53,575 nucleotides of DNA from Planctomycetota bacterium (GTDB taxonomy: Bacteria; Planctomycetota; Phycisphaerae; UBA1845). Each line of letters begins with the position of its first letter. The first letter of the stretch is position 1. Of this stretch, positions 21,327 through 27,153 are shown piece after piece. The notes under the pieces were generated by a model that saw only the letters and a list, made by a program, of their open reading frames with translations, had not been told where the DNA came from and did no database searches. The stretch is taken from positions 1-53,575 of the forward strand of contig JAUWWQ010000029.1 of the NCBI GenBank assembly GCA_030616775.1, in the 5' to 3' direction. The translations under genes were made by a program, and so were the position numbers.

Positions 21327-21653
21327 ATCCCTTTTGCGCGTTCCACGGAACCGGCAGATGGTAAGAAAGACATCGAAGTGCCTTTTCGCGTCATGAAGAC
21401 CTCGCTAAGATGCATGGAAGTGTGCAAGGCCATCGCCGAGATCGGCAACCGCCCCTCAGTCTCCGATGCCGGGGTCGGCGACATCGCCGCCCGTTCAGCC
21501 GTCATGGGTGCGTATCTCAACGTCAGAATTAATTCCGCCGGCGTGGAATATAAGAAGTGGATGGACGACATCCTCACTCGCGGCACCGAGATCCAAGAAA
21601 AAGCCATCGCCCTCGAACACGAGATCGTGGAGATTGTGAACGGGAAACTGTAG
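21327..21653 (+). pseudogene. C-terminal fragment of an FTCD_C-type cyclodeaminase
   Basis: The frame from about 21327 reads like the tail of formimidoyl-tetrahydrofolate cyclodeaminase / methenyl-THF cyclohydrolase (FTCD_C, FchA): EVPFRVMKTSLRCMEVCKAI, GNRPSVSDAGVGDIAARSAV, MGAYLNVRIN. Only about 100 residues remain, against roughly 200 for the domain. The N-terminal half is absent. The upstream in-frame stop is the TAA of the TPR gene. A GTG at 21378 could start a 91-aa peptide, but that would be half a helical bundle. I read it as a remnant left by deletion at the left border of the accessory island. Expression as a short protein is not excluded. Confidence 0.7.
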
Positions 21654-21772
21654 TCTCGAACCGAGTTTGCGTAGCTCACTCGGTTCATGACGTGAAATCC
21701 AACACCGGAATCATTTGAGCCAAATGGTCAGCAACGGCAGTCCCGTCGTGCTTGCATGGAGGGAGTTGTGTT

Positions 21773-24112
21773 ATGGACGTCTCCTTATACGGGCAGATCG
21801 TGGCACTACGCGATCTCACCAATGCGCCCAAGCGAGGTTATCGGTTTGAGCAAGCCCTTCGTGAGATCTTGCCTTGGACCTCGCGCCCGCCGCTCACGGC
21901 GAGTGGACAATCTGAGCAGTTCGATGCGTTCTACGAGTGGAACAGGAGGTTCTATCTGGTTGAGGCGAAAGCGAAGAGACCTATCATCAAGCAGGGTGCT
22001 TCCGAGTGGGAAGATTTCGAACTCAAGCTGCGCCGGCGACAGGGGAGTGTTGTCGGCCTCTTCTGCAGTTTGTGGCCTGTTCACGAAAATGTTATCGATG
22101 CCGCGAGACGGATGAATGAAGGTGCAGTTCCAGCGATCGTTCTTGCGGGAGGTATATGGGACGAACTCACTGAGATGCCTTTGCCATTCGGCGACGTTCT
22201 CCAGTATTGCTTGTATCACGCGCACACCAAGCATTCGGCAACACCTCCCGCCTTGAAGGCCGTACAGGAGTGGTGTTACGAACGATCCTCCACAGAAGCC
22301 CACGTACGCGACGTGTGTTGTAAGAAGTCTGGGACCTTCCTCCGTAGATACCGTTTGCCGAAGCATTCCGAGCTGTATGTTCCACGGGCGCTTGATGAAT
22401 ACGCTGGTGCGCTTGCCGACTCGTTGCGTCCTTCGTTGCTTAGAAGGCAAGTACGCAAACATAAGCATGGTAAGGAAATTGTGGAAGTCAAGCGTGAGGC
22501 ACCACGACAAGTATGCGTGATACGCGATTTGTCAGGATGCGGGAAGACGATGTTCGTCGTCAATCTAGCGCTACAGTCGCCCAAATGGTTCTGCGTTGCG
22601 CGCGCCGCACTCGAGCCGGACATCGACGACCTCTATTCGATACTTCATGACGTTGGCAGAGAGGACGGGCTGTTCCATCTCTTATCGCTGGATAGGCCGA
22701 TGTTCTACGCTGTCGACTCTCTTGATGAGGCAGGACATATTCCGGAGAAGCGGCGCGAGTCAATTGCGATTCTACGAATAATCGATGACCTGAACACTAA
22801 GGCCCGGGCGGTAGGACTGCTCTGCTTCCCGATTGCCCTGGTTGTCACAGTGCGCGAGGACTACTGGCGCCACTGGCAATCTGTCTTCGAGGGGCGACCA
22901 TTGCTCACTTATCGCAAACGCCTGTCCAATTTCACCACACCAGAATTCGATGACGCGCTCCAACAGTACGCCACAACCTACCACTACACACCAACGACGA
23001 CGCCCACCGCTTCGGCACGCCGGCTGCTCAGCGTTCCCTTTAATCTGCTCGTCTTCTCGGAGGCTCACGAATATGCCGGGACGCTGTCATTTGCAGAGGT
23101 CTTTCCCGAGAACGTGCTGCATCTCTACTTCGCCAAGAAACGCGACGACATCCTTCGACGCCACATCCCCGGATTCGTAGGAGCCCAACTCATGCACGTT
23201 TGCGCTGAGTTGGCCGTCAAGGTTGCCAAAGCGCGTGCGAACCGCATTGCTCAAAGTGCGGTGCTTCAGGCCATCGGCGGGAGCTTTCCGACTCTGGCCC
23301 CCCTTGCCGAGGAGATCGTGCTCGCGCTTGTGTCTGAGCAGATCCTACTTCGAGACCCGGACAATCCGGATGAGCTACGGTTCCGCCATAACCGCGTAAT
23401 TGAGTACCTGATCGCATACCACATCGTCGCGACAGTGGAGGAACGACAAAACACGGACTGGCTTGACGAGGAGATTCGGGATCTGGTCGAATCGGAGCTG
23501 ATCACCATATACAGCATCCATGAATGCATCAAGTTTATGTGCAAGAGCGAGAAACCTGCTATCTATCGGCTGTTTGAAAAATACTACGCAAGCTCGAGCG
23601 AGTTAATGAAGATAACTCTCGCCCACTTGCGTCAAGACATAGCGTACGGTGGATTCACTGATCCGGACGATCTCAAGCTGATAGCAAAACACACACAGTC
23701 ATCGGATCCGGCAGGTTGCTGGGATTGCTTCTTTGTCTTGGCGGCACGGCGGAATAGTCAGCCTCCTGGGAAGATCGTAGAGGCATTTGATTTCGCTTGG
23801 ACGACTAACCCAAACTCAGTGGAGCGCTGGCGACTGCTCCACAAGCTTTGGGAGCGCGGCCTGCTTCTCAACGAGAGAGTCTTCCTTCGGATAACGGAAA
23901 GCGACTCGGCCAAGGAATGGCAGGTGTTCCTTGGATGCCTGTTAGAGTCGCCCGACCGTGAAGGTCTCGTGGAAATGTGGAACGAGTTCGGGGGCGGTGA
24001 GGTGCACCACAAGCTCAAAGCGCAATCCGGCGGCGAGTGGCGTCATGTCGATCGGCTACTCACAATCTTACTGGAGGGCAGGGACTACATACCTGGCGAA
24101 GCGCTATGGTGA
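21773..24112 (+). CDS. nuclease-STAND NTPase (putative anti-phage protein)
   Basis: A 779-aa protein starting at the ATG at 21773, with GGAGGGAG upstream. Residues 1-105 look like a PD-(D/E)xK nuclease domain: GYRFEQALREIL (Glu26), SEQFDAFYEW (Asp51), then FYLVEAKAK with Glu64 and Lys66, and VVGLFCSL. Next comes a STAND-type NTPase: P-loop IRDLSGCGKT (Gly255, Gly257, Lys258, Thr259), Walker B MFYAVDSLDEAG (Asp315, Asp318, Glu319), sensor VVTVREDYW (Arg361), and a winged-helix-like FRHNRVIEYLIAYHIV near 537-552. The last 200 residues are helical and could be the sensor. Order and logic match Avs/NACHT-like defence proteins, but it is far shorter than typical Avs proteins. The defence role is inferred. 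Confidence 0.78.
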   Translation: MDVSLYGQIVALRDLTNAPKRGYRFEQALREILPWTSRPPLTASGQSEQFDAFYEWNRRFYLVEAKAKRPIIKQGASEWEDFELKLRRRQGSVVGLFCSLWPVHENVIDAARRMNEGAVPAIVLAGGIWDELTEMPLPFGDVLQYCLYHAHTKHSATPPALKAVQEWCYERSSTEAHVRDVCCKKSGTFLRRYRLPKHSELYVPRALDEYAGALADSLRPSLLRRQVRKHKHGKEIVEVKREAPRQVCVIRDLSGCGKTMFVVNLALQSPKWFCVARAALEPDIDDLYSILHDVGREDGLFHLLSLDRPMFYAVDSLDEAGHIPEKRRESIAILRIIDDLNTKARAVGLLCFPIALVVTVREDYWRHWQSVFEGRPLLTYRKRLSNFTTPEFDDALQQYATTYHYTPTTTPTASARRLLSVPFNLLVFSEAHEYAGTLSFAEVFPENVLHLYFAKKRDDILRRHIPGFVGAQLMHVCAELAVKVAKARANRIAQSAVLQAIGGSFPTLAPLAEEIVLALVSEQILLRDPDNPDELRFRHNRVIEYLIAYHIVATVEERQNTDWLDEEIRDLVESELITIYSIHECIKFMCKSEKPAIYRLFEKYYASSSELMKITLAHLRQDIAYGGFTDPDDLKLIAKHTQSSDPAGCWDCFFVLAARRNSQPPGKIVEAFDFAWTTNPNSVERWRLLHKLWERGLLLNERVFLRITESDSAKEWQVFLGCLLESPDREGLVEMWNEFGGGEVHHKLKAQSGGEWRHVDRLLTILLEGRDYIPGEALW

Positions 24113-24225: not shown

Positions 24226-24267
24226 CACCCCTCTCCCTTGCAGGGAGAGGGGCAGGGGGTGAGGGTG
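24226..24267 (+). repeat. palindromic GC-rich repeat, copy A
   Basis: A 42-bp unit: a perfect inverted repeat CCCCTCTCCC-ttgca-GGGAGAGGGG followed by a GGGGGTGAGGGTG tail. It lies 114 bp after the STAND gene. The same unit recurs at 24550-24591 and 25160-25201. Related inverted-orientation copies (CCCTCCCCCTGAGAGGGGGAGGG and variant) lie near 24373-24410 and 24976-25011. The family resembles the palindromic repeats often found around DUF559 genes. Confidence 0.85.
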
Positions 24268-24362
24268 CAGTGGTTCTGGCATCGAGGGCGCACCACGCCC
24301 ATGACCATGCAAGGATGCGGGTGGCGGTGTACGTTGGGCGGTCACGGACTCGAACGGTATCT

Positions 24363-24595
24363 GTAAGTCTCCACCCCCACCCTGCCCTCCCCCTGAGAGG
24401 GGGAGGGGTAAAGCGAACCGCAAGCGTTTGACGGGTGGCAGGCGGGCTCGTTATGAGTGGTTCGGCGTTGTCCTTGCTGCCGGGTGGCACGGTTGACACG
24501 GAGCATGGCCACGTGTGGTATCGTGAGAGGAACGGGTGCGGCAGTCTTACACCCCTCTCCCTTGCAGGGAGAGGGGCTGGGGGTGAGGGTGGGAA
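24363..24595 (+). repeat. left ~235-bp direct repeat flanking the DUF559 gene
   Basis: This segment and 24966-25203 are long, nearly identical direct repeats. Each starts GTARGTCTC, contains an inverted-orientation palindrome, then the same body (AAGCGTTTGACGGGTGGCAG, TTATGAGTGGTTCGGCGTTG), and ends with a forward palindrome copy and GAA-ATG. The copy here leads straight into the DUF559 start codon. The GAGGGTGGG tail of the palindrome doubles as its ribosome binding site. Confidence 0.85.
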
Positions 24596-24961
24596 ATGAC
24601 GAATGAGAAGCGTCATCGAGTGCCACCAAAGATGACGGAACGAGCGCGTGATCTGCGGCGCGAGGCTACGTTTCCTGAGCGCCTGTTATGGAGTCGGTTG
24701 CGCGACGGTCAATTAGAAGGGACGCGCTTTCGTCGCCAACATGTGATCGGTCCGTATGTTGCTGACTTCTACTGTGCGAAGCACAATCTCGTGATCGAGC
24801 TCGACGGACACAGTCATGACACAACGGCACAAGCTGATCTCCGAAGGGAAGAGTATCTGAAGGAGCAAGGATGTCGGATTGTCCGGTTCAGGAACGACGA
24901 GGTGATTGAGAATATCGATGGTGTCCTGGATGCCATCTCGAATGCGGTTGCCGAGACCTGA
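24596..24961 (+). CDS. DUF559 (Vsr-like) endonuclease
   Basis: A 121-aa protein of the DUF559 family, a PD-(D/E)xK nuclease fold related to the very-short-patch repair endonuclease. Signature segments are the TERARDLRREATFPERLLWS leader, RFRRQHVIGPYVADFYC (Asp57), LVIELDGHSHD (Glu68 and Asp70), and the tail GCRIVRFRNDEVIENIDGVL. All expected catalytic acidic residues are present and the length is complete. It is enclosed by 235-240-bp direct repeats made of palindromes. This arrangement suggests that gene and repeats form one unit, as REP sequences do with their RAYT transposases. The biological activity of DUF559 proteins is not established. Confidence 0.9.
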   Translation: MTNEKRHRVPPKMTERARDLRREATFPERLLWSRLRDGQLEGTRFRRQHVIGPYVADFYCAKHNLVIELDGHSHDTTAQADLRREEYLKEQGCRIVRFRNDEVIENIDGVLDAISNAVAET

Positions 24962-24965
24962 GTTC

Positions 24966-25203
24966 GTAGGTCTCTACCCCCACCCTGCCCTCCCCCTGGG
25001 AGGGGGAGGGATAAAGCGGACCGCAAGCGTTTGACGGGTGGCAGGCGGGCTCGTTATGAGTGGTTCGGCGTTGTCTTTGCTGCCGGGTGGTATCCGCCTC
25101 CGGCGGACGCTTGCGTGGCCATCTGTGGCATCGTGAGAGGAACGCGTGCGGCGGTCTTGCACCCCTCTCCCTCGCAGGGAGAGGGGCTAGGGGTGAGGGT
25201 GAA
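24966..25203 (+). repeat. right ~240-bp direct repeat flanking the DUF559 gene
   Basis: The second copy of the long direct repeat, beginning 4 bp after the DUF559 stop and ending at the start codon of the next gene. It differs from the left copy by scattered substitutions and one block swap: TCCGCC-tcc-GGCGGA, a small hairpin, replaces about 15 bp of the left copy. Because both copies end at GAA-ATG, the pair looks like a duplicated leader, with the DUF559 unit inserted before the downstream gene. Confidence 0.85.
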
Positions 25204-26166
25204 ATGGTGGTCAAGCGGCATCTTGAAGCGTTCCACGAGACCAGTCGGAAGCTGGACTTCATGGGCCCCATGGAGTCTTTGCTGAACGAATTCCGCCGGG
25301 GGAACATTGCGGACAAGAATCGCGTCCAAGAAGCATCAGCCATTCAATCTCACCTCGGAGAACACTACGAGGCATGGGACCACGTCTTTCCAAGGTTTCC
25401 CGAATGCCCCTGGAAGCGGCGCACGATCACCTGGGAGAATCACAGAGGCCGGAGAGACGCCTACCTGGAGCATCTGATCGTCACCCATGTACCGCAGCAC
25501 GAGGCCGGAAATCGCCTCATCATCAATCCCGCCACTGTGGCCGGCATGCATGCCAGAAGGCTGGCCCATAAGCTGCCCGCCTATGAGGTCCTCGGAACTG
25601 ACATTGACCCTCGGTGGAACCGCCTTTATCGATTGGTGCTCTTCTGGAAATATCGCCAACTGAGAAACTATCGATTCGTGCGAGAGAACATCTATGATCC
25701 GGATCTGGAGCGACACCCGGCCGCCGTTGTCTTCTTTGGCGCCTGCGGTTCCGTGACCGACGGATGCATGGACTACGCCATAGCCGTGAGGTCACCCTTT
25801 TTGATCTGCAGGTCCTGCTGCCATGACAACATCGGGGGCAATACGCAGATCGTGAGGCGACGGGGCCGCCCGATCAACGATTTCTTCGCATGGAAGAACT
25901 ACTGGTTCGCGAAATACAAGAAAAAAGGGAAGGGCTTCTACTTCTCGGATCGCTACGTCAAGGACGCCTACCCCAGAAGCAAGGCGGCACGGGAAATCAT
26001 GGACTCCGACACGATCATCGCCGCCGCCCGGAATTCGCCGGAGAGTGACATTTGCAGAAGCCTGATTGACCTCGACCGGTGCCTGTTCCTGCGAGAGAAC
26101 GGCTACGATGTCATGTATCGCGAGGAGCTCTTCTTTGCTCACAGACGGCGCGAAGCCTCCGGTTGA
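25204..26166 (+). CDS. methyltransferase-like protein of unknown family
   Basis: A 320-aa protein if it starts at the ATG right after the repeat. A longer frame from 25060 would translate the repeat itself (PLSLAGRGARGEGE) and is rejected. The middle resembles a class I SAM-dependent methyltransferase: LIINPATVAGMHARRLAHKL (Gly-poor motif I), VLGTDIDPRWNRLY (acidic end of strand 2), FVRENIYDPD, then AAVVFFGACGSVTDGCMDYA and the striking FLICRSCCHDNIGGNTQIVR. Cys/His residues at that last position recall RNA/protein methyltransferases with a PCCH-type motif. The N-terminal 100 residues are charged helices. The substrate is unknown and the methyltransferase reading is tentative. It follows the DUF559 unit in the island. 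Confidence 0.6.
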   Translation: MVVKRHLEAFHETSRKLDFMGPMESLLNEFRRGNIADKNRVQEASAIQSHLGEHYEAWDHVFPRFPECPWKRRTITWENHRGRRDAYLEHLIVTHVPQHEAGNRLIINPATVAGMHARRLAHKLPAYEVLGTDIDPRWNRLYRLVLFWKYRQLRNYRFVRENIYDPDLERHPAAVVFFGACGSVTDGCMDYAIAVRSPFLICRSCCHDNIGGNTQIVRRRGRPINDFFAWKNYWFAKYKKKGKGFYFSDRYVKDAYPRSKAAREIMDSDTIIAAARNSPESDICRSLIDLDRCLFLRENGYDVMYREELFFAHRRREASG

Positions 26167-26434: not shown

Positions 26435-26809
26435 ATGCCGCGAACCGAGGTCATCCTCTTCAAGGAGGACGACAAGAGCGTGCCGCTCGTGGAATGGCTT
26501 GAATCCGCTCCCAAGAAGCCGCAGGCGAAGTGCGTCGCCGCACTCGCCCGGCTTGAGGAACTCGGCCACGAACTGCGTCGCCCCGAGGCGGATTACCTCC
26601 GGGACGACATCTATGAGCTTCGCGTCCGGTTTCAGAGCGTGAATTACCGCATGCTCTACTTCTTCCACGGACGAGCTGTCGCAGTCGTGTCACACGGCTG
26701 CACGAAAGAGCGAGCGGTCCCAAAACGAGAAATCGACGCTGCCGTCAAACGAAAAGAGCGGTTTGAGAAAGAACCAAAGAAGCACAGCGAACGATTCACG
26801 AAGGGTTAA
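26435..26809 (+). CDS. RelE/HigB-type toxin (Gp49-like)
   Basis: A 124-aa toxin of the phage-derived Gp49/HigB group, ribosome-dependent mRNA interferases. Recognisable parts are VPLVEWLESAPKKPQAKCVA, LEELGHELRRPEADYLRDDI, YELRVRFQSVNYRMLYFFHG, then HGCTKERAVPKREIDAAVKR. The basic residues of the Y-E-LR-R-NYR core are those expected on the RNA-binding face. GGAGG lies 5 nt before the ATG. The antitoxin starts 2 bp after its stop, so toxin precedes antitoxin as in higBA. The C-terminal tail is Lys/Glu-rich. Full length, no sign of decay. Confidence 0.87.
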   Translation: MPRTEVILFKEDDKSVPLVEWLESAPKKPQAKCVAALARLEELGHELRRPEADYLRDDIYELRVRFQSVNYRMLYFFHGRAVAVVSHGCTKERAVPKREIDAAVKRKERFEKEPKKHSERFTKG

Positions 26810-26811
26810 CG

Positions 26812-27153
26812 ATGCCTGCACGAAAAAGCAAAAAGCAGAAGCCATCCTCCCCGGCCCTAAAGCACCTCCATAAACGTTTCATCGAGGGCGACGCCGAGCA
26901 GGAGGCCGCCTACGAAGAGCACCTCGCAAACGCCGAGATTGCCCGCAAGCTCTACGACCTACGCGATAAAGCGGGGCTCAGCCAGCGCGAACTGGCCAAG
27001 CTCGTCGGCACTTCCGCGTCGGTCATCTGTCGCCTTGAGGATGCGGACTACAACGGCCACTCGCTCTCCATGCTCCAGCGCATCGCGGCCGTGCTCGACA
27101 AGCGCGTGGAAATCCGTTTTGTCCCTGTGCGGCGGAAAGCACAACCCGCTTGA
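26812..27153 (+). CDS. HigA-like XRE antitoxin
   Basis: A 113-aa partner of the preceding toxin. Residues 50-105 are a Cro/C1-type helix-turn-helix: IARKLYDLRDKAGLSQRELA, KLVGTSASVICRLEDADYNG, SLSMLQRIAAVLDKRVEIRF. The first 45 residues are basic then acidic helices likely to wrap the toxin. It should bind the two dyads upstream of the toxin gene and repress the operon. A longer frame on the same strand but another phase runs through its 3' half and is a shadow. Just downstream lies a dead tyrosine recombinase, so the module probably arrived with a mobile element. Confidence 0.87.
   Translation: MPARKSKKQKPSSPALKHLHKRFIEGDAEQEAAYEEHLANAEIARKLYDLRDKAGLSQRELAKLVGTSASVICRLEDADYNGHSLSMLQRIAAVLDKRVEIRFVPVRRKAQPA

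Follow-up and report, generated by a model that had tools for sequence, protein, structure and literature searches.

The DUF559 locus of the window

The window, a stretch of 53,575 nucleotides from a contig of a Planctomycetota bacterium, a phylum that the gene content also suggests, contains a DUF559 gene (24596..24961, + strand; 121 amino acids) set among five palindromes. Inspection of the window sequence places them, as described in the first-pass annotation, in alternating orientation (A+, B-, C+, D-, E+). All five have hairpin folds with perfect stems of 10-11 bp and loops of 3 nt, and in every one a pyrimidine 5' arm and a purine 3' arm enclose the short loop, which is the hairpin of BoxC/triplex motifs. 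Strand was assigned from an asymmetric G-rich purine tail (GGGGGTGAGGG or GGGTGGGGG) that stands to the right of A, C, and E (+) and to the left of B and D (-). Palindrome A (24226..24267) consists of a hairpin at 24228-24252 and a purine third-strand tail at 24253-24267, and palindrome B (24371..24410) of a left tail at 24371-24384 and a hairpin at 24385-24407. The hairpins of C (24550..24592), D (24974..25013), and E (25160..25203) lie at 24552-24576, 24988-25010, and 25162-25186, respectively. The mirror purine third strand scores 9/9 in B, C, D, and E, and A has the same tail by sequence.

Palindromes B and C with their spacer form direct repeat 1 (24363..24598, + strand), a REPIN-like pair with outward tails. 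D and E with their spacer form direct repeat 2 (24966..25206, + strand), whose tails also point outward. The two repeats are 87% identical over 243 gapped columns (E 3e-81), with an ungapped identity of 95% in the first 125 nt and 90% in the last 89 nt. The repeats of about 240 bp previously described as enclosing the DUF559 gene are real, with boundaries a few bases wider than first given. Each ends, as had been noted, at a start codon: the DUF559 ATG at 24596 and the ATG of the next gene at 25204. The DUF559 gene lies between palindromes C and D, whose tails point inward. The tail of C (GGGGGTGAGGGTGG) is Shine-Dalgarno (SD)-like and lies immediately 5' of the DUF559 start codon, and that of E reaches up to the start codon of the gene that follows.

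Counted genome-wide, the palindrome unit is restricted to this locus. The core CTCTCCC(N2-10)GGGAGAG occurs three times in the entire 4.45-Mb genome, every time at the window locus, and the reversed control pattern has no match in the whole genome; the array is therefore far beyond chance. The DUF559 gene beside it is the only one of the genome.

The neighbouring gene on the right (25204..26166, + strand) codes for a conserved protein of 320 amino acids without a convincing family match. The protein is 82-90% identical in three relatives, in two of them at other sites. Homology to the three begins at 25221-25222, about 20 bp past palindrome E, and the palindromes are missing in all of them. 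On the left, an FTCD_C-like gene (21378..21653, + strand) anchors a site that is syntenic with the same-genus genome G295 (L238). No DUF559 gene is present in G294 or G295, two same-genus genomes that are incomplete (76% and 71%). The homologue of the right-hand gene in G295 still has the FTCD_C-like gene as its neighbour; the space between them holds histidine-kinase-like, response-regulator-like, and nuclease-like ORFs (labels assigned by eye from translations), and neither a DUF559 gene nor palindromes. The arrangement is thus not fixed among relatives; its fixation was one of the two findings that the first-pass annotation had named as counting against its reading. An exact empty site for the window cassette was not found, the only synteny being with this variable island of G295. 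The simplest reading is that the whole array arrived in the window lineage at a variable site, and the window copy, the single one of its genome, was probably acquired horizontally and sits within a variable island. The same island contains a gene for a 786-aa protein with a P-loop-like motif (GCGKT; 21752-24112). It has no Pfam, NCBIfam, or PADLOC match, is missing from the 59 relatives searched, and may be a defence gene. A HigBA-like toxin-antitoxin pair (Gp49/DUF891 + HTH; 26435-27153) adjoins the island.

DUF559 is a common nuclease family of "unknown function". The window protein matches PF04480 with 131 bits (E 1.9e-38), and its AlphaFold model has a pLDDT of 90.6. The best fold matches are NGO0050 (3hrl) and the catalytic domain of I-Bth0305I (3r3p; TM-score 0.78-0.80 depending on the target, profile E 8e-6), with Vsr (1vsr) further down. 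Residues E28, D57, E68, D70, and H74 are present and are invariant or at least 90% conserved in an alignment of 24 sequences. The protein therefore models as a Vsr/I-Bth0305I-type homing-endonuclease domain of the PD-(D/E)XK kind and is a predicted nuclease. YcjD of E. coli, NGO0050, and VsrA of Caulobacter belong to the same Pfam family, but the retrieved papers on them contain no link to palindromic repeats.

Palindromes at DUF559 genes across phyla

Palindrome detection required perfect arms of 8 or 9, so all counts are lower bounds. In 85 DUF559 loci from 53 genomes of the phylum of the window (window included), 2.7-3.3 palindromes per kb were found within 100 bp of the domain, against about 0.14-0.23 per kb at 1-9 kb. 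A broader set of 80 DUF559 loci from named genomes of many phyla had 4.1 per kb upstream and 7.3 per kb downstream within 100 bp, and a palindrome within 300 bp at 66 of the 80 loci. Pyrimidine-first palindromes lay within 300 bp at 103 of 160 DUF559 loci and in 17 of 300 shifted control windows (Fisher 1e-42), and on both sides at 50 of 160 loci and in 1 of 300 controls (Fisher 1e-24). Purine-first palindromes were present at only 4 of the 160. In a hold-out set of new loci from the family and order of the window, taken after the criterion had been fixed, all 11 stand-alone DUF559 genes were palindrome-positive and four fused or partial domains were negative; the far flanks contained no palindrome in 22,336 bp. 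Reversed-pattern controls, shuffled tails, and shifted windows exclude chance or base composition as the source. The association between DUF559 genes and this palindrome class is near certain, and the earlier proposal that the repeats are tied to DUF559 holds well outside the window genome; the other finding named against it, repeats unconnected with DUF559, does not apply. At about 36% of DUF559 loci no palindrome was detected; most of these have domains fused to large proteins or diverged motifs. At least two palindromes were present in 25 of 53 genomes with DUF559 and in 28 of 241 without detected DUF559, phylogeny being ignored in this comparison.

Tandem DUF559 copies 1.7-4.2 kb apart were seen in genomes of family f49 (L062, L059, L082), and G195 has one more DUF559 copy than G153 at the same place. 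At another locus of G195 (L058, contig C42), the DUF559 gene contains an internal stop, and the palindrome close to it is of another sequence (GTAGAGACAGG...CCTGTCTCTAC).

Knowledge of BoxC repeats in E. coli dates back to the 1990s. BoxC and PIT are earlier names for the intrastrand triplex motif TM_ECO (Holder et al. 2015, PMC4666352), which has 23 copies in E. coli MG1655, is present in over 260 genomes, and has been shown to form a triplex in vitro for the E. coli motif (PMC4666352). Near DUF559, 171 of 199 palindromes (86%) have a third strand, against about 18 after shuffling. In 119 of the 199 it is a perfect 7-nt mirror after a loop of 0-6 nt (2.8 with shuffled tails), and in a further 52 it follows a longer loop (15.5 with shuffled tails). 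Since the pyrimidine arm, the purine arm, and the mirror third strand fit the motif definition, the palindromes near DUF559 are, by their sequence, BoxC/PIT/intrastrand triplex motifs (TM class). Those of the window are predicted to be able to fold as intrastrand triplexes, in which the order would be pyrimidine arm, loop, purine arm, loop, and purine third strand. In Alphaproteobacteria (L150, L170, and others) a second small hairpin separates the third strand (GGAGGGG) from the hairpin, a structured version of the long loop.

The likeness to TM_ECO also covers the intergenic location, multiple copies, and inverted pairs, and in E. coli MG1655 a motif copy lies in the gap between ycjD, a DUF559 gene, and fabI, directly 3' of ycjD (L215:4030-4840). 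The difference lies in the neighbouring gene: the 2015 survey found no transposase or integrase near triplex motifs (PMC4666352), and its text mentions neither nuclease nor DUF nor ycjD, whereas the present data link the motif to DUF559 in many phyla. Text searches of literature outside subscription papers found none linking DUF559 with palindromes. Full-length ycjD is present in about 3,340 of 5,426 complete E. coli genomes, and others have the eef operon in its place. The locus was rejected as a clean empty site, ycjD and the eef operon being alternative contents.

Palindrome and nuclease variants also go together. Arm similarity tracks protein similarity across genomes (Mantel r 0.35, reached in 0 of 500 permutations); it was 0.89 to the locus with the nearest foreign protein and 0.70 to a random other locus. 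Where a genome has more than one DUF559 gene, the arm variant tends to differ from gene to gene. The variants of G153 (TCCCCCTT, TCCCCCGC, TCCCCTCT, and TCCCCTCCTT) are each nearer to the closest relative elsewhere than to their sisters in the genome. Some of these closest relatives are orthologues within one genus; in others, such as the counterparts of G153 locus L057 in G168 (L070) and G239 (L084), homology is limited to the gene and the palindromes.

Insertions and absences of the cassette

Two Deinococcus plasmids carry homologous cassettes (98 of 113 amino acids identical in the proteins, 421 bp at 79%) at different sites of orthologous hpa operons, one between hpaE and an oxidoreductase gene and the other between the oxidoreductase gene and hpaB. 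The site used in the first plasmid is closed in the second, where hpaE and the oxidoreductase gene overlap. The copy in the second plasmid has 61-bp inverted ends that contain the palindromes. In Synechocystis sp. B12, a cassette of 436 bp interrupts an MmeI-like methylase gene (L286:1474-5792). When its flanks were joined in silico, the resulting sequence (LENPGEVKVFTIFGNLSK) was continuous with the uninterrupted homologue of Planktothrix (ETANPGKIVIAPDGQLSK). Insertion into a site that is uninterrupted in homologues, the mark of a homing gene, is thus seen at the Synechocystis mmeI-like locus; the window site is variable. An additional frameshift lies upstream of the cassette in the Synechocystis mmeI-like gene. 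A second Synechocystis cassette, on another plasmid, lies within a DUF1156 methylase gene whose homologues are 30-39 residues longer at the junction, so that some gene sequence may have been lost.

In both clean insertions (Deinococcus and Synechocystis) a lone cassette ends in palindromes and lacks a long duplication, and no target-site duplication of the whole cassette was established at them. Their tails point outward, and those flanking the window gene point inward. Long direct repeats (score at least 50) flank 12 of 158 DUF559 loci and 0 of 121 controls. The direct-repeat architecture of the window therefore recurs, as a minority form. At a Neisseria gonorrhoeae locus (L276) it is visible by eye. 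The suggestion of the first-pass annotation that the leader is duplicated on insertion does not hold as a rule, given the rarity of long repeats and their lack at the clean insertions. The window repeats more plausibly represent a palindrome pair present twice (B-C and D-E), probably through local duplication of the pair, than a duplicated leader.

The palindromes also vary in presence without the gene. In the pst intergenic region of E. coli a single BoxC motif is present or absent (L222:1340-1600, L226:391-560). The 92-bp difference has an 8-bp direct repeat (AACCGTGT) at its ends and fits either insertion or slippage deletion. The zntA-tusA intergenic region (L223:1280-1620, L227, L228, L230) also occurs in several length alleles, in which a BoxC motif is combined with REP-like sequence.

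Within a genus, synteny and conservation of DUF559 loci are common, so the cassette rarely moves. Plasmid or phage carriage was rejected as the main vehicle (DUF559 in 42 of 72,556 plasmid and 3 of 50,697 phage records), and a short tblastn search against phages returned no match. A supposed cassette swap at a Brevundimonas site (L138 versus L150/L170) was also discarded, as it looks like fast divergence of one lineage. The window locus is not a classical IS or MITE: palindromic ends are present and there is no transposase. On the evidence of the insertions, mobility of the cassette is very likely.

Candidate mechanism and its alternatives

The pairing across phyla, the matching of palindrome and nuclease variants, and the insertion or absence of the cassette at several sites favour one reading: the window locus is, with reasonable probability, a copy of a mobile cassette found in many phyla, which acts as a REP/RAYT-like replicator with a homing-type nuclease as its driver. 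The DUF559 nuclease would recognise the palindrome of its own cassette, most likely in the extruded form of a hairpin or triplex, or a similar target, and would make a nick or break there. Repair or recombination between palindromes would then copy the cassette, or a palindrome pair alone, to a new place, and non-autonomous pairs would be by-products of this copying. Nuclease action on the palindromes is the step that we infer. A broader claim, to which we give slightly less than an even chance, is that a hitherto unrecognised class of mobile element, with a Vsr-fold homing-type nuclease that reads folded DNA (hairpin or triplex) as its sole protein, has BoxC/triplex palindromes as its ends and as its non-autonomous offspring. 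DUF559 would be the first candidate enzyme for the long-orphaned BoxC repeat family, and the tie gives each a testable partner. It would also add a second kind of nuclease-palindrome replicator to REP/RAYT. E. coli K-12 carries both ycjD and BoxC, and the idea is testable there.

The palindromes could instead be passive regulatory or structural parts of the DUF559 gene (a hairpin at the ribosome-binding site, a terminator), with the nuclease acting elsewhere, for example in mismatch repair or defence. The DUF559 start codon often lies 5-35 nt past a palindrome with the purine-rich tail in SD position, and the tail of the first palindrome points towards the gene in 77 of 108 cases and outward in 31 (p 1e-5). 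Hairpin and tail may thus act as a ribosome-binding site and in translational control. Caulobacter VsrA, which behaves like a repair nuclease of the Vsr kind and has a link to a cytosine methyltransferase, is needed for the DNA-damage response in cells without this partner (PMC12907096), which would suit a role elsewhere. However, gene-free palindromes reach hundreds of copies per genome and are polymorphic for presence in E. coli, a terminator would not need a purine third strand, and earlier work cited in the 2015 survey found BoxC/PIT without promoter or terminator activity (PMC4666352). Purely regulatory palindromes are therefore unlikely.

Equally unlikely is that DUF559 cassettes are homing elements entering pre-existing BoxC-type palindromes that were spread by replication slippage, RAYT, or recombination. 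The homing-endonuclease-like fold and the many genomes with palindromes and without DUF559 would agree with this, and a palindrome tail is similar in part to the insertion target in Synechocystis (AACCCC^GGTGAG). With the I-Bth0305I/Vsr-like homing endonucleases DUF559 shares the catalytic-domain fold and the finding of cassettes inside conserved genes; the differences are that DUF559 proteins are stand-alone, of 120 amino acids, free of introns or inteins, and flanked by triplex palindromes, and that their cleavage activity is predicted. Against prior palindromes as targets, the window genome has no other palindrome that could have served as one, and the cassette brought palindromes into a coding sequence and an operon junction that lacked them. 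Y1_Tnp genes, moreover, are not associated with the palindromes. A third proposal, that DUF559 is a resolving or repair nuclease kept adjacent by selection against triplex-repeat instability and does not mobilise anything, fits the Vsr-like fold and the genetic instability reported around BoxC loci in E. coli (PMC4666352), but is very improbable, as a trans-acting repair enzyme needs no bracketing repeats and the distinct palindrome variant at each of several loci per genome would be unexplained.

The mobile-cassette reading resembles REP/REPIN with RAYT (TnpA_REP, an HUH transposase) in its short palindromes, inverted pairs, many non-autonomous copies elsewhere, and a lone small nuclease gene with a palindrome variant of its own on its flanks. 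The analogy drawn in the first-pass annotation is apt in kind, palindromes and nuclease forming a unit. The differences are that the enzyme here is a Vsr-fold PD-(D/E)XK protein and not HUH/Y1, that the palindromes have a third purine strand, and that the tetranucleotide tags are lacking: in the window, neither GTAG nor CGTC stands directly at a hairpin foot, and G-rich tails follow there. At 21 Y1_Tnp loci from palindrome-rich genomes, no such palindromes were found within 300 bp, only other palindromes or none. G084 has 333 palindrome copies and, as an incomplete genome, no Y1_Tnp match; G172 and G197 (the latter incomplete) likewise have copies and no match. The genome of the window has 8 Y1_Tnp matches, none on the window contig. 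On the Y1_Tnp loci and the palindrome-rich genomes with no Y1_Tnp match, RAYT-driven REP was rejected as the origin of these palindromes. In the single such case seen (L037, G033:C66:13685-13909), one palindrome array contains both a DUF559 gene and, about 220 bp away, a partial, RAYT-like Y1_Tnp match.
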